From contig NZ_JADMKU010000001.1 of NCBI RefSeq assembly GCF_018219815.1, positions 186,001 through 250,000 on the forward strand: DNA of 64,000 nucleotides, in the 5' to 3' direction. Positions 8,557-64,000 of the stretch are shown in pieces. The notes under the pieces are model-generated. The model had not been told where the DNA came from. It saw only the letters and a list, made by a program, of their open reading frames with translations, and made no database searches. Each line of letters starts with the position of its first letter. Position 1 is the first letter of the stretch. Made by a program: the position numbers and the translations under genes. The DNA comes from Thalassovita aquimarina (GTDB lineage: Bacteria > Pseudomonadota > Alphaproteobacteria > Rhodobacterales > Rhodobacteraceae).

Positions 8557-9146
8557 CCAAGAAGGTCGCGATCCTGATCTCGGGCGGCGGCTCGAACATG
8601 GTGAAACTGGTCGAAAGCATGGTGGGCGACCACCCGGCGCGTCCCGTTCTGGTCGGGTCGAACGATCCACAGGCCGGCGGGCTGCAAAAGGCCGCCGAAA
8701 TGGGGGTGCCCACCTTCGCCGTCGACCACCGCCCGTTCAAGGGCGACCGTGAAGGATTCGAAGCCGAACTGAACGCCAAGCTGGCCGAGGCCGAGCCCGA
8801 TATCATCTGTCTTGCCGGTTTCATGCGGGTCCTGACCGAAGGCTTCGTGCGTCGTTGGGAAGGTCGGATGCTGAACATCCATCCCTCGCTGCTGCCCAAG
8901 TACAAGGGGCTGCATACCCATCAGCGCGCGCTGGAGGCGGGCGACAAGGAGGCCGGGTGCACCGTTCACTTGGTGACGCCCGCGCTCGACGACGGGCCGA
9001 TCCTGGGGCAGGCGCGGGTCCCGGTGCTGCCCGACGATACGCCGGACAGCCTTGCGGCAAGGGTTCTGGTGCAGGAACACAGGCTTTATCCGGCCGTATT
9101 GGAACGCTTCGCGCGGGGCGAAACCGACCCGATCACCCTCGATTGA
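8553..9146 (+). CDS. purN: Phosphoribosylglycinamide formyltransferase
   Basis: 197 residues. Transfers a formyl group from 10-formyl-THF to GAR, step three of purine synthesis. It starts with GTG inside the purM stop (GTGA overlap); no closer ATG fits the family start [14 protein letters not shown], the phosphate-binding region. The catalytic segment [10 protein letters not shown] ... [17 protein letters not shown] and the [13 protein letters not shown] motif hold the conserved Asn, His and Asp. Complete. Confidence 0.97.
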
Positions 9147-9255
9147 CGGGACGGCAAGCCGGTGATGCTTTGCATCCCCGGCGCAATCGCGTATGTCTGG
9201 GCGTCAGACCGCCCTCCAAGCCACACCGAAACAAGACCACGAAACCAAGGCGCCG

Positions 9256-10413
9256 ATGAAGACACTCACAACGACCGAAGAGCTCGCCCGTTTCTGCGAA
9301 GAAGCACGCAAACACGATTACGTCACGGTCGATACCGAGTTCCTGCGCGAACGGACCTACTATTCCAAGCTCTGCCTGGTGCAGCTGGCGATGCCGGGAG
9401 ACAACGACGACACCGCCGTTCTGGTCGATCCGCTGGCCGAGGGCATGTCGCTGACCCCGTTGATGGACCTGTTCCGCGATACCTCGGTGGTCAAGGTGTT
9501 TCACGCGGCAAGGCAGGACCTGGAGATTTTCTTCGTCGAACATCAGGTGTTCCCCGAACCTCTGTTCGACACGCAGGCGGCGGCGATGGTCTGCGGTTTC
9601 GGCGAACAGGTGGGCTATGAAACGCTGGTCCGAAAGGTCGCCAAGCAGAGCCTCGACAAGACCTCGCGCTTCACCGACTGGTCGCGCCGTCCGCTGACCG
9701 AGGCGCAGAAGAAATACGCTCTGGCCGACGTCACCCATCTGCGGGTGATCTACGAATACCTGGCCGCGCAGCTGGAAAAGACCGGTCGTGCCAAGTGGGT
9801 ACAGGAAGAACTGCGCATCCTGACCAATCCCGACACCTATATCATTCAGCCCTCCGAGGCCTGGAAACGGGTCAAGACCCGCACCAACAGCGGCAAGTTC
9901 CTTGCCGTGGTGCGCGAACTGGCACGGTTCCGCGAAGGTTACGCGCAATCGCGCAACGTGCCGCGCAGCCGCGTGTTCAAGGACGACGCGCTGGTCGAGC
10001 TGGCCTCGACCAAGCCGACGTCGATGAACGATCTGGGCCGGTCGCGGCTGCTGTTGCGCGAAGCCCGCCGGGGCGAGATCGCCGATGGTATCCTGGCGGC
10101 GGTGAAGGTCGGGATCGAATGCCCGCCCGAGGATTACCCGAAACCCGACACCAGCCGCGACAAGCTGCAGGTGAACCCGGCGCTGGCCGATCTTCTGCGG
10201 GTGTTGCTGAAGGCAAAGACCGAAAGCGCCGGCGTGGCATCGAAGCTGATCGCGCCTGCGGCCGATCTGGACGCGATCTCGGCGGGTCTGCGCGACGTGC
10301 CGGCTTTGACCGGTTGGCGCCGCGAAGTGTTCGGCGATGACGCGCTGCGCCTGTGCAACGGCGAAATCGCGCTGGCCGCGAAGGGCAAGTCGGTCAAAAT
10401 CGTCGAACTTTGA
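9256..10413 (+). CDS. rnd: Ribonuclease D
   Basis: 385 residues. A DEDD-family 3'-5' exoribonuclease that trims tRNA and other structured RNA 3' ends. The three Exo motifs are visible: VTVDTEFLRERTYY (DxE), HAARQDLEIF and YALADVTHLRVIYEYL, all within the first 180 residues, followed by an HRDC-type helical region (about 210-290). The start MKTLTTTEELARF fits the family, so a longer frame from 9193 is not used. It follows purN by 109 bases and may be cotranscribed. Confidence 0.93.
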   Translation: MKTLTTTEELARFCEEARKHDYVTVDTEFLRERTYYSKLCLVQLAMPGDNDDTAVLVDPLAEGMSLTPLMDLFRDTSVVKVFHAARQDLEIFFVEHQVFPEPLFDTQAAAMVCGFGEQVGYETLVRKVAKQSLDKTSRFTDWSRRPLTEAQKKYALADVTHLRVIYEYLAAQLEKTGRAKWVQEELRILTNPDTYIIQPSEAWKRVKTRTNSGKFLAVVRELARFREGYAQSRNVPRSRVFKDDALVELASTKPTSMNDLGRSRLLLREARRGEIADGILAAVKVGIECPPEDYPKPDTSRDKLQVNPALADLLRVLLKAKTESAGVASKLIAPAADLDAISAGLRDVPALTGWRREVFGDDALRLCNGEIALAAKGKSVKIVEL

Positions 10414-56800: not shown

Positions 56801-57112
56801 TCAGTCCAGCGGGGAAAAGGCCGCTGGTTGCAGGAAAACGCTTTCCTGATAATCGAGATATGGCAGGATCTTGGGAACGAAGGCTTGCCAGTCGGCGTCG
56901 GCGCCCAGTTTGGCGCGCTGTTCGGTGCGGTGGCCGTAATCGTCATAGGCCCAGATGAACACCACGGAATTCAACGGCCCGCTATCGGTCACCCAGCAGC
57001 CGGTCAGCTTGGCGTATTTGGTGATGATATGAAGCCCCTCGGCCTCGTAGAGCTTCAGAAACTCCGGCGCTTTGCCGGCGGTGATGCGGTAGGTTCGCTT
57101 TTCATAGATCAT
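56801..57112 (-). CDS. NIPSNAP family protein
   Basis: 103 residues. MIYEKRTYRITAGKAPEFLK and FIWAYDDYGHRTEQRAKL are NIPSNAP hallmarks; ferredoxin-like dimer fold. Bacterial members often sit beside catabolic oxidoreductases, and their role is unsettled. GGAACC precedes the ATG. The divergent region shared with the TetR gene contains a palindromic operator and, on this strand, a TATAAT box (57233-57228) that ends 15 bases before the operator begins. Confidence 0.88.
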   Translation of the reverse strand: MIYEKRTYRITAGKAPEFLKLYEAEGLHIITKYAKLTGCWVTDSGPLNSVVFIWAYDDYGHRTEQRAKLGADADWQAFVPKILPYLDYQESVFLQPAAFSPLD

Positions 57113-57195: not shown

Positions 57196-57215
57196 AAGTC
57201 GTCATTTGACGACAT
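57196..57215. promoter_or_regulatory. Palindromic operator 1 (TetR-type)
   Basis: AAGTCGTCATTTGACGACAT, arms GTCGTCA and TGACGAC with a 2-base centre. It lies between the divergent NIPSNAP and tetR genes and just downstream of a minus-strand TATAAT, where a repressor would block NIPSNAP transcription and may also act on tetR. Confidence 0.75.
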
Positions 57216-57312
57216 GATTGTTGACGGATTATACAGGGTTTATCGACATCGCGCCTTGGCTGGGCGGGAGTGATCGGCTAACGCAAGCCCAGACCACAAG
57301 AAGGGGAGCGGC

Positions 57313-58005
57313 GTGAAGGCAAAATCCGATGCGCTCAGGGAGCAGGTTCGAAAGACCAGCAGTGCGAAGAAGGAAGGCGGTTCCGGGCGTCTGCCGCATG
57401 CCGAACGCAGGGCGCAAATCCTTGAAACTGCTTCTGATTTCTTTGCCGAAAACGGCCTGACCGGGCAAACCCGCATGCTGGCCGACGCCTGCGGCGTGTC
57501 GCAACGTCTGCTCTACAGGTTCTTTCCGACCAAGCAGGAACTTGTTGCCGAAGTATACCGTGAAGAGATCCTGGGCGCGTTCAAGGCTGGCTGGTTTGTC
57601 GATCTTCAGAACCGGAATCTGTCGGCAGAAGAGCGATTCACCGCGTTTTACGTGGACTATCTTGAGACGACTCTGACGTGTAAATGGCTCCGCCTGTTCT
57701 TGTATGCCTCGTTGTCGGATGCGTCGATGGCGCCCGATTACATCACGAGCATCGTGACCCAGCTTCTAGAGGTTCTGATGCGCGAAGCCGCGCATGAAAT
57801 CGGTATCGACCTGCCTGATGATCGCGAGGCCGTGCACGAAATGGCCTGGACTCTGCATGGATCGATTTCCCACTATGCGATCCGGCGCCACATCTACAAG
57901 GCCAGCTGGAATGTTCCTGAGAAACAGGTGGTTAAGATGCATGTGCGCATGTTCTTGGCAGGGCTGGGCGCGATGGTCGAAGCCTATAACGCCGAGAATT
58001 CCTGA
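57313..58005 (+). CDS. TetR-family transcriptional regulator
   Basis: 230 residues. N-terminal helix-turn-helix: RRAQILETASDFFAENG then GQTRMLADACGVSQRLLYRF, the TetR signature around residues 33-72, with a basic serine-rich tail before it. The C-terminal ligand domain is unassigned. GTG start with AAGGGGAGCGGC upstream. Two copies of a 16-bp palindrome, one before this gene and one after it in front of the ABC transporter, are its probable operators. Ligand probably the transported substrate or its hydroxylated product. Confidence 0.92.
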   Translation: MKAKSDALREQVRKTSSAKKEGGSGRLPHAERRAQILETASDFFAENGLTGQTRMLADACGVSQRLLYRFFPTKQELVAEVYREEILGAFKAGWFVDLQNRNLSAEERFTAFYVDYLETTLTCKWLRLFLYASLSDASMAPDYITSIVTQLLEVLMREAAHEIGIDLPDDREAVHEMAWTLHGSISHYAIRRHIYKASWNVPEKQVVKMHVRMFLAGLGAMVEAYNAENS

Positions 58006-58109
58006 TCCTTCGCCCCCAGATTCTGAATCAGTTCTGACGACAATTTGAGTTTTGCCGCCAAAACCCGGGGGCTGGTTGCCGAGGATTGCGGCATTTTGTG
58101 CAGGCTCGT

Positions 58110-58129
58110 AAGTCGTCAATTGACGACAT
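58110..58129 (+). promoter_or_regulatory. Palindromic operator 2 (TetR-type)
   Basis: AAGTCGTCAATTGACGACAT, identical to operator 1 except for one base in the centre. Perfect 16-bp palindrome GTCGTCAATTGACGAC, 123 bases before the start of the ABC substrate-binding gene. A half-site TGACGAC occurs at 58035-58041. Confidence 0.75.
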
Positions 58130-58251
58130 AAGAATCTCAAACTAACGTGATTCCCCAAGGTCAACCGTCCTGTCAGTTGGGGTGGCTTGTCGAAACGTAT
58201 TGCCCCGTCTTCGTGATGCCGGGGCCGGATCGAACAACAGGGGAGTACAAA

Positions 58252-59583
58252 ATGGCACGACTTATCAAACCACAAATCGGCCGGCGCGAGTTTCTCAAGA
58301 GCTCGGCCGCGGCGGGCGCTATGGCGCTGGCAGGGCCGGCACGCTTCGCAGGCGCTCAGGCCGCGAACCCGGTCACCCTGCACACTTGGTCGGCTGCGGT
58401 CGACACGGTGCAGAGCCATCTCAACGCCTTCACCAAATCGACCGGCATTCCGGTGAACTACGGCAATTCGCCCTGGGCGCAGTATCGCGAGGGCATGGTC
58501 ACCAAATTCGTCGGCGGCGCGCCGCTCGACATGATGTGGGTTTCTGATGCCTGGCTGCCCGAATGGGCCGAGGCCGGCTGGATCGCACCGATCGACGAAT
58601 ACGATTTCCTGACCGCCTACAATTCCGAGGCCGAGGATTTCTGCACCGACTCGATGACCTATAACGGGCGTCAGTACGGGCTGACCTATTACACCGACTT
58701 CATGGCCTTCCTCTATGACGAGAGCAAGATCAAGGAAGCCGGTTTCGACGCGCCGCCCGCAACCTGGGACGAAGTTGTCGAACAGTCGCTGGTGATGAAG
58801 GAAAAGGGCATCGCGGAATTCCCGATGATGCTGGCCATGGCGCAGGAAAGCTGGCTGATCGAATTCATGTCGTCGCTGGTTTATTCGCATGGCGGTCGGT
58901 TCACCGACGATGCCGGCAAGGCGATCATGCAGCACGACAAGGACGGCGCGGTCGAGGCGCTGCAATGGGTGGTGGATGCCGTGAACAAGCACGGTATCGT
59001 GTCGCCCGCCTGTGTCGAAACCGGCGAACTGTCGGGGCTGAAGGCCTTTGCCTCGGGCAACCATGCCTTCGCGATGGTGGCGAAGTACCGTCTGCGCATG
59101 CTGAACGACCCGGCACAGTCGCAGATCGCCGGCAACGTCAAGCAGGCGATGATGCCCAAAGGCGCAAACGGCGATCACAACACGGTCGGCTGGATGCGCT
59201 TCCACGGCATGTCGGCACAGACCGCCAAGGACAAGCAGCAGGCTGAAAACACCGCCAAGCTGATCGAATGGTTCGGCGGGAAATCCGATGGCGCCTATAC
59301 GTTCCAGAAGCTGCTGTTCCTCGATATCGGCGCGGGTTTCGGCGTCAAGCCGCTGTTCGACGATCCAGAAATCCAGGCCTCGTACAATTCGTATGGCGAC
59401 GTCGAGATGATCAAGGCGCAGCAGGCGCTGGCCATGAAAAAGGACGTGGTCACGCCGTGGTTCGGCGAATGGAGCGAAACCAACGGGTCTGCCTGGCAAT
59501 CGGCGATCCTTGGCAACACCGACGTCAAGTCGGCGGTCACGAAATCCGCCGAGCTGTGGGATGAACTGAAAGACTCCTACTGA
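58252..59583 (+). CDS. ABC transporter substrate-binding protein (CUT1 type), Tat-exported
   Basis: 443 residues. Twin-arginine signal GRREFLKSSAAAGAMALAGP followed by a cleavage region (FAGAQA), so the folded protein is exported by Tat. Body is a solute-binding family 1/8 protein: VTLHTWSAAVDTVQSHL, DMMWVSDAWLPEWAEAG, YNGRQYGLTYYTDFMAFLY. Such proteins bind sugars or other polar organics; the ligand is not evident. GGGGAG precedes the ATG. First gene of the operon SBP, two permeases, ATPase, hydroxylase subunits. Confidence 0.93.
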   Translation: MARLIKPQIGRREFLKSSAAAGAMALAGPARFAGAQAANPVTLHTWSAAVDTVQSHLNAFTKSTGIPVNYGNSPWAQYREGMVTKFVGGAPLDMMWVSDAWLPEWAEAGWIAPIDEYDFLTAYNSEAEDFCTDSMTYNGRQYGLTYYTDFMAFLYDESKIKEAGFDAPPATWDEVVEQSLVMKEKGIAEFPMMLAMAQESWLIEFMSSLVYSHGGRFTDDAGKAIMQHDKDGAVEALQWVVDAVNKHGIVSPACVETGELSGLKAFASGNHAFAMVAKYRLRMLNDPAQSQIAGNVKQAMMPKGANGDHNTVGWMRFHGMSAQTAKDKQQAENTAKLIEWFGGKSDGAYTFQKLLFLDIGAGFGVKPLFDDPEIQASYNSYGDVEMIKAQQALAMKKDVVTPWFGEWSETNGSAWQSAILGNTDVKSAVTKSAELWDELKDSY

Positions 59584-59663
59584 CACGATCAACCGGTTCC
59601 GGCGCAGGCAGTTTCCTGCGCCGGTATCTTCCGAATACTATCATAATAAGGCGGGGCAACGGC

Positions 59664-60584
59664 GTGGCAGAAGTCGTGCATCAACAAGCGGGACGGGGCC
59701 GATTGCGCGCCATGTTCGGCTATGAAGAACGCAGTGCAATCGTGTTTCTGGCGCCGGTCATGGCGGTGCTCATGGGGGTGGCGGTCTTCCCGATCCTCTA
59801 TTCCTTCTACCTGAGCTTTTTCCGGATGAAGCTGACGCGTCCGAACCGGACGCCCTTCGTCTGGTTCGACAACTACACCGACCTGTTTACGAACGAACTG
59901 TTCTGGGTATCGGTGACGCGCACGGTGGTCTTCGCCGTCACGTCGGTGACGTCCATCGCCGTTGTCGCGCTGCTGGTGGCGCTGCTGCTGAACCAGAATT
60001 TCCGCGGCCGCAGGATTCTTTCGACCATCATCCTGATCCCTTGGGCGATCCCCTACGTGGCCAACGCCTTGATGTGGAAATGGATCTACGATTCCGGCTA
60101 TGGCGCGTTGAACGGCGTGTTGTACCAGTTGGATTTCATCGACAAATACATGGTGTGGCTCGGCGATCAGGACAAAACGATCTTCCTCATCGCAAACGCC
60201 TTCGTGTGGAAAGAGGTTCCGCTCGCGGCGATCCTGCTGCTGGTGTCGCTGAAATCGATTCCGTCGGACCTGTACCAGGCCGCGCGGGTTGACGGCGCCA
60301 CCGTCTGGCAACGCTTTTTCCATGTCACGCTGCCGGCGATGAAGCCCGGTTTCATGCTGGTGATGATCTATGAAACGATGATGGCGATCCGCCATTTCGA
60401 CCTGTTCTTCATCCTGACCGAAGGCGGACCGGGCGATGCCAGCCATGTGCTGTCCTGGCATATCTATGTGGAAACCTTCCGCAACCTGTCGTTCGGCAGC
60501 GGCGCAGCGATGTCCTATGTTCTGGCCCTGGTGACCTTCGCGCTGTCCTACACCTTCATTCGCACCCTTGGCCGGAAGGTTTGA
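59664..60584 (+). CDS. ABC transporter permease (MalF type)
   Basis: 306 residues, six membrane helices. The EAA loop that contacts the ATPase reads YQAARVDGATVWQRFFHVTLP. GTG start at 59664 preceded by GGGGCAACG; the N-terminal tail is polar. The stop is two bases before the next start. Confidence 0.93.
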   Translation: MAEVVHQQAGRGRLRAMFGYEERSAIVFLAPVMAVLMGVAVFPILYSFYLSFFRMKLTRPNRTPFVWFDNYTDLFTNELFWVSVTRTVVFAVTSVTSIAVVALLVALLLNQNFRGRRILSTIILIPWAIPYVANALMWKWIYDSGYGALNGVLYQLDFIDKYMVWLGDQDKTIFLIANAFVWKEVPLAAILLLVSLKSIPSDLYQAARVDGATVWQRFFHVTLPAMKPGFMLVMIYETMMAIRHFDLFFILTEGGPGDASHVLSWHIYVETFRNLSFGSGAAMSYVLALVTFALSYTFIRTLGRKV

Positions 60585-60586
60585 CC

Positions 60587-61549
60587 ATGACCGACGTTTC
60601 CCAAACCCGCACCGGCGGGATCGATTACCGCCGCCGCCAGCGCCTGTCGCGTATCGCGCATTCGCTGGTGATCCTGGCCGGGGCGATCGTGCTGACGATC
60701 TACGTGATCGCACCGGTGACATGGCTTGTCTCCTCGTCGTTCCAAACCGAGGCCGAAATCGTTTCGGTGCCGCCGCACTGGATTCCCGACGAACCGACGC
60801 TGCAGAATTTCGAAGCGATTTTCACCGCGCAGGAAGAGGAAGAAATCACCTATGAAACCCGCAGCGGGCAGGACCCGGCGGCGGGCGGTTTCATCCCTTC
60901 GACGGCCAAGAACCTGCTGCCCGCGATGTGGAACAGTTTCATCGTCGCGACGCTGGTGGTGATCCTGAACCTGCTGGTGGGCGTCCCGGCGGCCTATGCG
61001 CTGGCCAAGATCCGGTTCTGGGGGCGCGACGGGTCGGTCTATTTCATCCTGATCACCCGGGTCATCCCCGATATCGCGCTGGTGGTGCCGTTCTTCCTGG
61101 TGATCCGCAAACTGGGCATGCTGGACAGTATCTTTTCGCTGGTGCTGACCTATCTGGCGGTGACGGTGCCGTTCAGCGTCTTCATCCTGCTGCAGTATTT
61201 CGAAGGGCTGCCGGACGAATTGGACAAGGCCGCGCGCGTCGATGGCTGTTCGCGGTTTCAGGCGCTGGTGCGGGTGTTCCTGCCGCTGTCGCTGCCGTCG
61301 CTGGTCGCCGTGGTGCTGTTCACCTTCCTGACCAGCTGGAACGAATTCCTGCTGGCCCTGATGTTCACCCAGACCGAGGCGTCGCAGACGTTGCCGATCC
61401 TGCTGGCGGCCTTCACTTCGGATTTCACCATCAGTTTCTCGTTCATCAACGCGGCCGGGGTTCTGGCGATCGTCCCCCCCGTGATCGTCGCGGTGATTTT
61501 TGAACGCTACATCGTTTCCGGCCTGACCGCCGGTGCCGTCAAAGGCTAG
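60587..61549 (+). CDS. ABC transporter permease (MalG type)
   Basis: 320 residues, six membrane helices. EAA loop DELDKAARVDGCSRFQAL with FLPLSLPSLV following. A periplasmic insert (about residues 80-110, rich in E and including EEEEITYETRSGQD) is longer than in MalG and could be a substrate-specific feature. Start ATG 60587 with GGAAGG ahead of it. Confidence 0.93.
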   Translation: MTDVSQTRTGGIDYRRRQRLSRIAHSLVILAGAIVLTIYVIAPVTWLVSSSFQTEAEIVSVPPHWIPDEPTLQNFEAIFTAQEEEEITYETRSGQDPAAGGFIPSTAKNLLPAMWNSFIVATLVVILNLLVGVPAAYALAKIRFWGRDGSVYFILITRVIPDIALVVPFFLVIRKLGMLDSIFSLVLTYLAVTVPFSVFILLQYFEGLPDELDKAARVDGCSRFQALVRVFLPLSLPSLVAVVLFTFLTSWNEFLLALMFTQTEASQTLPILLAAFTSDFTISFSFINAAGVLAIVPPVIVAVIFERYIVSGLTAGAVKG

Positions 61550-61563
61550 GAAAGGAAAGACCC

Positions 61564-62664
61564 TTGGCTCGTATCCGTTTCGAGAACGTCGAGAAGAAAT
61601 ACGCAAACGGCTTTCACGCCGTGAAGGATCTCAACCTCGATATCCGCGACAAGGAATTCCTTGTCCTGCTTGGGCCTTCGGGCTGCGGAAAATCCACCAC
61701 GCTGAACATGATCGCCGGACTGGAAGAGGTCAGCGACGGCAACCTGCTGTTCGACGACGAACTGGTCAACTACACGCCGCCGCACAAGCGCGACGTGGCG
61801 ATGGTGTTCCAGAGCTACGCGCTCTATCCGCACAAGACGGTGTTCGACAACATCGCCTTCGGTCTGCAGATGCGCAAAGCGCCGCGCGCCGAAATCGAAA
61901 CCCGGGTACGCGACGCAGCGCGCAAGCTGGAAATCGAACACCTGCTGGATCGGCGCCCGTCGCAACTGTCCGGCGGTCAGCGTCAACGCGTGGCGCTTGG
62001 CCGGGCCATGGTGCGCGACCCCGCGGTGTTCCTGATGGACGAACCGCTGTCGAACCTCGACGCGGCGCTGCGCATTTCGATGCGCGCCGAGATCAAGGAA
62101 CTGCACCAGCAGATGCAGACCACCTTCGTCTATGTCACCCACGACCAGGCCGAGGCGCTGACGCTGGCCGATCGGATCGTGGTGATGCGCGATGGCGTGG
62201 TGCAGCAGATAGGCAGCCCCGACGATATCTATGAACGCCCCAAGAACACCTTCGTCGCCTCCTTTCTGGGCAGTCCGCCGATCAACTATATCGATGGCGT
62301 CATCGAGGACCGGAACGGCGACGGCGTGAAGTTCGTGCGCGGTGATCTGATGCTGACCCTGCCGGAAGAAATCGCCGCCAAGCTGAGACACAGCGACCGC
62401 CGCGAAGTGCGCCTTGGCATCCGCGCCGAAGACGTGGACGAAGCCGCGCAGGGCGGTGAAGGCACGATCATCCGCGGCAAGGTGAATTCGGTTCTGCCCG
62501 TCGGGTCGGACCAGTTCCTAGGCTTCGATTTCTACGGCGAGGAGCTGTTTTTCCGGGTCAGCAAGGATCTCAGCCACAAGGTCGGAGAAGACGTGGCGTT
62601 GTCGGTCGATCTGAACCGGCTGCACCTGTTCGACAAGGACAGCGGCCAGAGCCTGCTCTGGTAA
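61564..62664 (+). CDS. ABC transporter ATP-binding protein (UgpC/MalK type)
   Basis: 366 residues. Walker A GPSGCGKST, Q-loop QSYALYPH, signature LSGGQRQRVALGRAM, Walker B VFLMDEPLSNLD and switch HD (THDQAEALTL). The C-terminal TOBE/MOBE domain begins near FLGSPPINYIDG. TTG start with AGGAAAGA upstream. Drives the two permeases. Confidence 0.96.
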   Translation: MARIRFENVEKKYANGFHAVKDLNLDIRDKEFLVLLGPSGCGKSTTLNMIAGLEEVSDGNLLFDDELVNYTPPHKRDVAMVFQSYALYPHKTVFDNIAFGLQMRKAPRAEIETRVRDAARKLEIEHLLDRRPSQLSGGQRQRVALGRAMVRDPAVFLMDEPLSNLDAALRISMRAEIKELHQQMQTTFVYVTHDQAEALTLADRIVVMRDGVVQQIGSPDDIYERPKNTFVASFLGSPPINYIDGVIEDRNGDGVKFVRGDLMLTLPEEIAAKLRHSDRREVRLGIRAEDVDEAAQGGEGTIIRGKVNSVLPVGSDQFLGFDFYGEELFFRVSKDLSHKVGEDVALSVDLNRLHLFDKDSGQSLLW

Positions 62665-62676
62665 CCGGAGAAAACG

Positions 62677-63555
62677 ATGAAACCCGCCCCTTTCACCTAC
62701 CATCGGCCCGGCGATGTCGACGAGGCGCTGAACCTGATGGCGCGCTTCGGGTCCGATGCCAAACCATTGGGTGGCGGGCAGAGTCTTGGGCCGATGCTGA
62801 ACATGCGTCTGGCGCGGCCTGGCCATCTGGTCGATCTGAACGATTTGCTGGAACTGGACTATGTCCGCGATCTGGGTGACGTGATCGAAATCGGCGGCCT
62901 GACCCGTCATCACCGGCTTGCCACCGCACCCGAGGTCGCGCGCGACCTGCCGCTTCTGGCCAAGGCCGCGCGCACCATCGGCCATTACGCGATCCGCCAG
63001 CGCGGCACCATCGGCGGCAGCCTCGTGCATGCTGACCCGGCGGCGCAACTGCCGCTGATCGCCGTGACGCTGGGCGTCGATGTGGTGCTGCGCTCGGTTC
63101 GCGGGGAACGGGTGGTTCCCGCTGCCGATTTCCTGCAATCCATCATGACGGTCGATCTGGGCGAGGACGAGATTGTCACCGCCCTTCGTTTCCCGCGCCA
63201 AACGGCTGATGAATACAGTTCCTTCGACCTGTTCAGCCGCCGCCACGGCGATTTCGCCATCGTCGGCGTGGCGTTGACGCTGCGCTTCGACGCCGCCGCC
63301 GCCGCCGCCGTGGAAGAGATGCGGCTGGGACTGGGCGGCACCGGCCCGGTGCCGCAGCGGATGCACGCTATCGAGGCCGCAGCGGTCGGTAACCCAATCG
63401 ACGCCGAAACAGCCGCCAGACTGGCCGCCGAAACCGCCGCCGCCATCAACCCCGAGGAAAATGCCGAAGTGCCTGCCGCCTATCGTCGCGAACTGGTCGA
63501 AACCATGATCCGGCACGCCCTGCTGGACGCTGCCGGAAAGCGGGGCCAGAAATGA
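62677..63555 (+). CDS. FAD-binding subunit of molybdenum hydroxylase (CoxM-like)
   Basis: 292 residues. FAD-binding PCMH fold: KPLGGGQSLGPMLNMRLARP, and RQRGTIGGSLVHADP (the TxGGxxxxxxP loop). Medium subunit of the xanthine dehydrogenase/CO dehydrogenase family, passing electrons from the Fe-S subunit to an acceptor. Starts 12 bases after the ATPase stop and overlaps the CoxS gene by four bases, tying the hydroxylase to the transporter in one transcript. Confidence 0.93.
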   Translation: MKPAPFTYHRPGDVDEALNLMARFGSDAKPLGGGQSLGPMLNMRLARPGHLVDLNDLLELDYVRDLGDVIEIGGLTRHHRLATAPEVARDLPLLAKAARTIGHYAIRQRGTIGGSLVHADPAAQLPLIAVTLGVDVVLRSVRGERVVPAADFLQSIMTVDLGEDEIVTALRFPRQTADEYSSFDLFSRRHGDFAIVGVALTLRFDAAAAAAVEEMRLGLGGTGPVPQRMHAIEAAAVGNPIDAETAARLAAETAAAINPEENAEVPAAYRRELVETMIRHALLDAAGKRGQK

Positions 63556-64000
63556 CCGCCCCGGTGTCCATATCGCTTGTCGTGAACGGCGAAACGCATG
63601 ACCTGACCGTGCCGCCGCGCAAGCTGCTGTCCGACGTGTTGCGCGACGACCTGCACCTGACCGGCACCCATGTGGGATGCGAACACGGCGTCTGCGGCGC
63701 CTGCACGATCCTGATTGACGGTCAGCCTTCGCGGGCTTGCCTGACCTATGCGGTGCAGATGGAGGGCCACGAACTGACCACCATCGAATCCGTGGCCGAT
63801 GGCGAAACCCTCAGCCCGCTGCAGCAAGCGCTGCACGAAGAACACGGGCTGCAATGCGGCTTCTGCACCGCCGGTATCGTGATGACGTTTGAGGCCTACC
63901 TGCGCGACAATCCCGACCCGGACGAGGCCGAAATCCGCGATGTGCTGTCGGGCAACCTGTGCCGCTGCACCGGCTACCAGAATATCGTGACGGCCATCCT
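63552..64000 (+). CDS. 2Fe-2S subunit of molybdenum hydroxylase (CoxS-like), cut by window end
   Basis: 149 complete codons visible; the 3' end lies outside the window. Plant-type ferredoxin cluster CEHGVCGAC and the second cluster CGFC ... CRCTGY are present, as in CoxS/XdhA-type small subunits. The molybdenum subunit (CoxL) should follow beyond the window. The substrate is a hydroxylatable organic compound (heterocycle, purine, aldehyde or CO); CO is unlikely without accessory cox genes visible here, but this cannot be decided from the window. Confidence 0.93.

Follow-up and report, generated by a model that had tools for sequence, protein, structure and literature searches.

The described systems closest to the gene cluster reported here are quinoline 2-oxidoreductase (1t3q), which we take to be a three-subunit molybdenum hydroxylase, aerobic carbon monoxide (CO) dehydrogenase (CoxMSL, with CoxG) and the CUT1 carbohydrate importers (Mal, Ugp and Smo). 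The cluster lies at the end of the window, by which we mean the whole 64,000-nucleotide stretch of Thalassovita aquimarina DNA analysed (contig NZ_JADMKU010000001.1, positions 186,001 to 250,000), and continues past it; it joins a TetR-family regulator gene and two palindromes to a CUT1-type ATP-binding cassette (ABC) importer and a molybdenum hydroxylase. The molybdenum subunit (coxL) has quinoline 2-oxidoreductase as its nearest solved relative and keeps the active-site Gln and Glu, but the loop AYRGVG of 1t3q is PMRAPM in the cluster enzyme, which also comes with a CUT1 importer and, in most loci, with an M20 amidohydrolase. Aerobic CO dehydrogenase (CODH) has the same subunit families and CoxG, whereas the cluster enzyme lacks the Cys loop and its coxL reaches 566 bits with the nearest CODH model, whose cut-off is 950. 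The importer has the SBP_bac_1 protein, two BPD_transp_1 permeases and MalK/UgpC-type ATPase of CUT1 systems, yet its solute-binding protein (SBP) is only about 15-22% identical to solved CUT1 sugar binders, in a comparison of sequence and predicted structure. The parts are of known kinds; no description of their combination was found among the matches listed in the open-access literature searched, and the pairing points to an uncharacterised route for uptake and breakdown of a small polar compound.

Conservation of an importer with a hydroxylase

We collected 43 related loci, 41 from a genome collection (84,980 species) and two from a plasmid collection. The genome-collection scan was seeded on two SBP peptide patterns and so would miss relatives at greater distance, as well as hydroxylases that lack the importer; the latter were sought in 295 genomes of the same family. 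Locus counts keep near-duplicates (five from Thioclava), and the limits for sufficient room and the identity thresholds were set by us. Going by record titles, the hosts were Rhodobacteraceae, Roseibium, Ciceribacter, Bradyrhizobium, Comamonadaceae, other Betaproteobacteria, Burkholderia, SAR324 and Rokubacteria; the titles include marine genera and mention lakes, groundwater and soil as sources. Counting the window, the importer genes were present in all loci with room for them (permeases 43/43 and 41/41, ATPase 38/38), and so were those of the hydroxylase (coxM 36/36, coxS 36/36 and, with the window left aside, coxL 35/35), although coxL was cut by a contig end or partly aligned in a few loci (L050, L057). 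NIPSNAP was found in 38 of the 42 loci with room, the window included (59-93% identity to the window protein in the 25 others aligned), TetR in 39 of 42, the reductase in 28 of 32, coxG in 26 of 32 and M20 in 22 of 32. Within the 295 family genomes, the SBP (E <= 1e-60, 76-100% identity) and the large subunit (E <= 1e-200, 74-100% identity) occurred in the same four; a sample of the class had the cluster in one of 385 genomes, the window's own, and in no further genome.

Sequence distances also run in parallel. Those of SBP and coxL correlated with r 0.86 over 34 loci and 0.89 over 29, and those among SBP, permease, coxL, TetR and NIPSNAP with r 0.85-0.94, values that none of 1000 permutations reached; these figures rest on the 34 or 29 of 44 loci with full-length genes, and shared ancestry of the hosts contributes to them. 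The gene set behaves as one unit. The coupling of importer to hydroxylase proposed in the first-pass annotation is therefore well supported: the finding that would have told against it, relatives in which the two are never together, was not seen, as both stand in all 35 loci long enough. The features of the cluster are as follows.

56801..57112, minus strand: NIPSNAP-family protein, 103 amino acids (aa), divergent from tetR; PF07978, 87.8 bits
57198..57213, no strand: operator 1 (putative), GTCGTCATTTGACGAC, between NIPSNAP and tetR; exact genome copy
57206..57234, plus strand: possible tetR promoter, TTGACG-N17-TTATAC, whose -35-like box lies within operator 1; consensus match, window only
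57313..58005, plus strand: TetR-family regulator, 230 aa, GTG start; TetR_N (PF00440) 41.3 bits, over cut-off
58112..58127, no strand: operator 2 (putative), GTCGTCAATTGACGAC, ahead of the importer operon; exact genome copy
58120..58148, plus strand: putative promoter of the importer operon, TTGACG-N17-TAACGT; its -35-like box falls in the right half of operator 2
58252..59583, plus strand: SBP of the CUT1 kind with a twin-arginine translocation (Tat) type signal, 443 aa; SBP_bac_1 101 bits
59664..60584, plus strand: permease 1, UgpA/MalF kind; PF00528, UgpA model 108.8 bits, below cut-off
60587..61549, plus strand: permease 2, MalG/UgpE kind; PF00528, with none of the GlcU, MalG and UgpE models reaching its cut-off
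61564..62664, plus strand: importer ATPase, MalK/UgpC kind, OB domain, TTG start; UgpC 453.5 bits, cut-off 432
62677..63555, plus strand: flavin adenine dinucleotide (FAD) subunit of the molybdenum hydroxylase (coxM kind); FAD_binding_5, CO_deh_flav_C
63552..64000, plus strand, ending at the equivalent of 64040: 2Fe-2S subunit (coxS kind); Fer2, Fer2_2; L007:6553-7041
L007:7038-9497, past the window end: molybdenum subunit (coxL), directly after the 2Fe-2S gene

Domain matches bore out the gene order read earlier from the sequence (NIPSNAP on the minus strand, then TetR, SBP, two permeases, ATPase, FAD and 2Fe-2S subunits). The range of 2-12 bases given for the gaps does not hold for all of them: from the SBP gene on they are 80, 2, 14, 12 and -4 bp. 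Extension beyond 64 kb recovered coxL, and L007:7038-12171 holds the molybdenum subunit, a reductase, CoxG and an M20 amidohydrolase in that order. The reductase belongs with the beta-hydroxyacid dehydrogenases, in the 3-hydroxyisobutyrate/tartronate-semialdehyde group; PF03446 and PF14833 place it in the wider group only, and it falls below the equivalog cut-offs for tartronate semialdehyde reductase (250 against 341 bits) and 3-hydroxyisobutyrate dehydrogenase (190 against 292 bits). The M20 protein scores 344.7 bits with TIGR01891, over the cut-off of 153.75.

Some loci depart from this layout. The large subunit of the Ciceribacter locus (L064:17882-20229) aligns as two overlapping pieces in different frames, from a frameshift or a sequencing error; in L057:8158-9249 an extra 363-aa open frame separates the 2Fe-2S gene from the portion of the large subunit that could be aligned; and at L020:1986-2760, from the same genome as L023, there is no M20 gene at its expected place, where transposase-like open frames were recognised by eye. 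The SAR324 locus L040 has a tandem two-domain NIPSNAP protein (8861-9496), no tetR or operator that we could find, and an enolase-superfamily gene after the hydroxylase. Downstream of the Thalassovita cluster, L007:12215-18139 holds a LuxR-type gene on the other strand, an FAD monooxygenase, an arginase-family ureohydrolase, two short-chain dehydrogenases and, judged by eye, a NitT/TauT-type ABC ATPase. Relatives of this ureohydrolase and ATPase and of the dehydrogenases lie on the opposite side of the cluster in L024:5182-8461, and a relative of the monooxygenase adjoins the cluster in L028.

Putative operators of the TetR protein

The 16-bp palindrome GTCGTCA-N2-TGACGAC occurs at 57198-57213 and 58112-58127, 914 bp apart. 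Checking the sequence confirmed that the two copies flank tetR and differ at one centre base only (ATTT in one, AATT in the other), and the flanks TAA...AT are common to both. The 4.33 Mb genome has no further exact copy; from base composition, 0.02 would be expected. Palindromes as such are not rare, as the window has 12 of any 7-2-7 kind against 5.8 expected. At up to two mismatches the genome has six places in all, against nine for the reversed control; besides the two exact sites these are one with one mismatch (L003, the one inspected) and three with two.

Both positions are kept in the related loci. The importer-side site lies within two mismatches of RTCGTCANNTGACGAY in all 39 loci with tetR and is exact in 28, compared with 0 of 9640 equally long control windows taken from other parts of these loci. 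The site between NIPSNAP and tetR was found within three mismatches in 36 of 36 divergent loci, 10 of them exact (controls, 91/8487). Most Comamonadaceae-type loci have the two outer bases changed jointly, giving ATCGTCA..TGACGAT (ATCGTCACTTGACGAT), and this paired change is what symmetric binding requires; there tetR and NIPSNAP are also flipped relative to the importer, yet both sites are kept. The five loci without a tetR match (L040, L050, L057, L059 and L061) had no site within three mismatches in the scanned stretch, which was short upstream in L050 and L061. Twenty other genomes or records were scanned for sites fitting RTCGTCANNTGACGAY exactly: 17 sites were found, in 15 of the 20, and by their coordinates all 17 lie within the cluster, while the reversed pattern gave no site. 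Kept at both places across two classes and with paired changes in their arms, the palindromes look like operators. The regulator, with its N-terminal helix-turn-helix and an adjoining palindromic operator candidate, fits the TetR family.

The palindrome had also been put forward as a handle on a full regulon. Its operator role stood on the conserved sites; the wider regulon did not. The palindrome is not widespread, and no regulon reaching beyond the cluster was found, in a search that covered exact sites and the one-mismatch place in this genome and exact sites in the 20 others. The TetR regulon looks like this one cluster, to which the divergent NIPSNAP gene belongs.

On the importer side, 37 of 39 loci have TTGACG in the site's right half, followed by TAnCGT at 17-18 bases in 18 of 39 and by AATAAT at 16-20 bases in 9 of 39. 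Because this box is kept inside the site, occlusion of RNA polymerase, and hence repression, is the likely mode there. A promoter inside the divergent operator was considered and dropped, as the window's own match is not conserved among the loci; TTGACG is poorly kept at that site, which limits the promoter-occlusion picture to the importer side.

Clues to substrate and chemistry

The hydroxylase has the marks of the xanthine oxidase family (MoCoBD_1/2, Ald_Xan_dh_C and the FAD and 2Fe-2S subunits). We profiled and aligned 17 of the 36 large-subunit sequences at hand. The Gln in GGxFGQK and the Glu in KGMAEGG, active-site residues of molybdenum hydroxylases, are invariant in these, and the active-site loop, which the first-pass annotation had marked for inspection, reads PMRAPM in 17 of 17 (GPMRAPM in 16). 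Seven of the genome's eight molybdenum-subunit loci could be aligned (L015 could not), and the other loops among them are QYRAVGH, AYRGAGR (twice), SYRCSFR, AYRAPSA and AFRGFGG. Against solved structures the coxL profile scored highest with quinoline 2-oxidoreductase (607 bits), followed by CO dehydrogenases (572-518), 6-hydroxypseudooxynicotine dehydrogenase (446) and 4zoh (357); the single coxL sequence gave 499 bits for quinoline 2-oxidoreductase and 468 for the next. This ranking supports hydroxylation next to a nitrogen. An XdhC-family gene follows M20 in L042 and, by sequence start, in L026 from Thioclava, where a MobA-like transferase adjoins NIPSNAP; such neighbours fit an active molybdenum enzyme.

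The importer has the CUT1 composition, with an SBP_bac_1 protein, two permeases and a MalK-like ATPase carrying an OB/TOBE domain. The Tat signal of the SBP scores 23.5 bits with TAT_signal against a cut-off of 22.7, and the motif residues R11, R12 and F14 are present in at least 90% of 35 SBP sequences. Its predicted structure (mean predicted local distance difference test score, pLDDT, 86.4) matched maltose-bound MalE3 in Foldseek with a template-modelling (TM) score of 0.80, and profiling against family structures placed it nearest to folds that bind maltose, trehalose, sorbitol and sulfoquinovose. In a Burkholderia locus, coxG and NIPSNAP have a porin gene between them (L065:21665-22804), as would be fitting for a hydrophilic substrate.

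Neighbouring genes give a further hint. Amide-hydrolase-like proteins of three families (M20, Amidohydro_3 and amidase-like) lie in or near the cluster; the Amidohydro_3 proteins of L044 and L062 are D-aminoacylase-like by sequence start, and the amidase-like gene of L040 is below its model's cut-off and on the other strand. The end of a hydantoinase B/oxoprolinase gene lies beside the cluster in Actibacterium (L024:21000-21329). A 456-aa gene directly follows NIPSNAP in L042, and relatives of equal length occupy that place in L046, L048 and L049. The L042 protein, the one of the four scanned, is an L-serine ammonia-lyase, with 661 bits against a cut-off of 345; as its gene precedes the importer operator, it probably shares the NIPSNAP transcript. 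L055 has a 2-hydroxyacid dehydrogenase after NIPSNAP, with a relative in the same place in L062. The best solved match of the reductase is 3w6u, presumably L-serine 3-dehydrogenase, for which we found no confirming paper. These genes would fit hydroxylation beside a nitrogen, amide cleavage and a serine-like product.

A possible catabolic route and its rivals

We favour, at a probability of about one half, a self-contained inducible cluster for uptake and catabolism. The TetR protein would bind the two palindromes and cover the -35 box at the importer operon until the substrate or an early product, acting as inducer, released it. The CUT1-type importer would take in a small polar compound, and the three-subunit hydroxylase would hydroxylate a carbon beside a ring nitrogen to give a lactam. 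This lactam would be acted on by the reductase and by NIPSNAP, which may be an isomerase or work on a cyclic intermediate, and then be cut by an amide hydrolase, in most loci M20, to yield a three-carbon, serine-like compound. Observed directly are the conservation of the sites and the unbroken association of importer with hydroxylase; we infer the binding, repression and inducer, the order of steps, the substrate class and product, the part played by NIPSNAP and, as first suggested for this locus, an unusual polar substrate that is imported and then hydroxylated.

Several observations weigh against this explanation. M20 was not found in 10 of 32 loci, the reductase in 4 of 32 and coxG in 6 of 32, and the amide hydrolases of L044 and L062, whose genes converge on the cluster, and of L040 lie outside the regulated transcripts. 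The serine ammonia-lyase is restricted to four related betaproteobacterial loci, and each extra neighbour gene could be there by chance. Five of the 20 scanned genomes or records have no exact site, only imperfect ones at the cluster, and at the divergent site TTGACG points towards tetR in 14 of 36 loci and towards NIPSNAP in 16 of 36. The nearest solved structures of the SBP with a named ligand are sugar or polyol binders. Finally, glyceraldehyde dehydrogenase subunits are the NCBIfam models to which coxM (235 bits, cut-off 350) and coxS (203 bits, cut-off 290) come nearest, which favours an aldehyde over a heterocycle.

The last two points are what an aldehyde oxidase would predict. The importer would then take in a sugar-like or amino-sugar-like compound whose derived aldehyde the hydroxylase turns into an acid, with M20 stripping an N-acyl group and the reductase, whose nearest NCBIfam model is tartronate semialdehyde reductase, handling a tartronate-semialdehyde-like intermediate. 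We consider this rather unlikely, as coxL is closer to quinoline 2-oxidoreductase than to 4zoh, although 4zoh is presumably the Sulfolobus glyceraldehyde enzyme, whose origin by itself makes it distant, and no kinase, aldolase or glycosidase was recognised among the open frames common to at least three loci, part of which were scanned. It is improbable that importer and hydroxylase are mere neighbours on a transcript, answering one signal with unrelated substrates. In favour of this, CUT1 importers and such hydroxylases usually occur apart; against it, the two are kept together in every sufficiently long locus of several classes and in the same four family genomes, and their distances correlate.

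A CO-oxidising or form II CoxL-type enzyme beside a fortuitous transporter is scarcely credible, even with the subunit families, CoxG and the CODH model match in its favour. The form I loop of CO dehydrogenase, AYxCSFR, carries the copper-bound Cys, and the form II loop is AYRGAGR; neither was found in the 17 aligned large subunits, so that by its PMRAPM loop the enzyme is of neither form. A separate large subunit of the same genome (L011, G000:C55:78403-79143) has the form I loop SYRCSFR. On the active-site loop we rejected CO dehydrogenase as a reading, and the hydroxylase is probably not such an enzyme; the CoxMSL-type label given to it at first holds for the subunit families, not for the CO-dehydrogenase loop. 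Homarine was raised as a substrate because the cluster occurs in marine Rhodobacteraceae. Going by title, its catabolic operon is said to be a conserved N-heterocycle pathway in environmental bacteria. That operon is common in Ruegeria and SAR11, compared with four of 295 family genomes for the cluster, a distribution that gives homarine no support.

Returning to the inducible uptake-and-catabolism cluster, its boldest form is a doubtful proposal that we offer tentatively: an undescribed pathway, spread over several bacterial classes, for a polar N-heterocycle with sugar-like groups, with CUT1 import, a new subfamily of hydroxylases marked by the PMRAPM loop, a serine-like product and NIPSNAP as a new catabolic enzyme. 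The cluster is a sharply bounded, testable unit with a single regulator, operator sequence, importer and hydroxylase. Identifying the ligand of its SBP could reveal the substrate, give a subfamily of molybdenum hydroxylases a function, and hint that a bacterial NIPSNAP protein takes part in catabolism.

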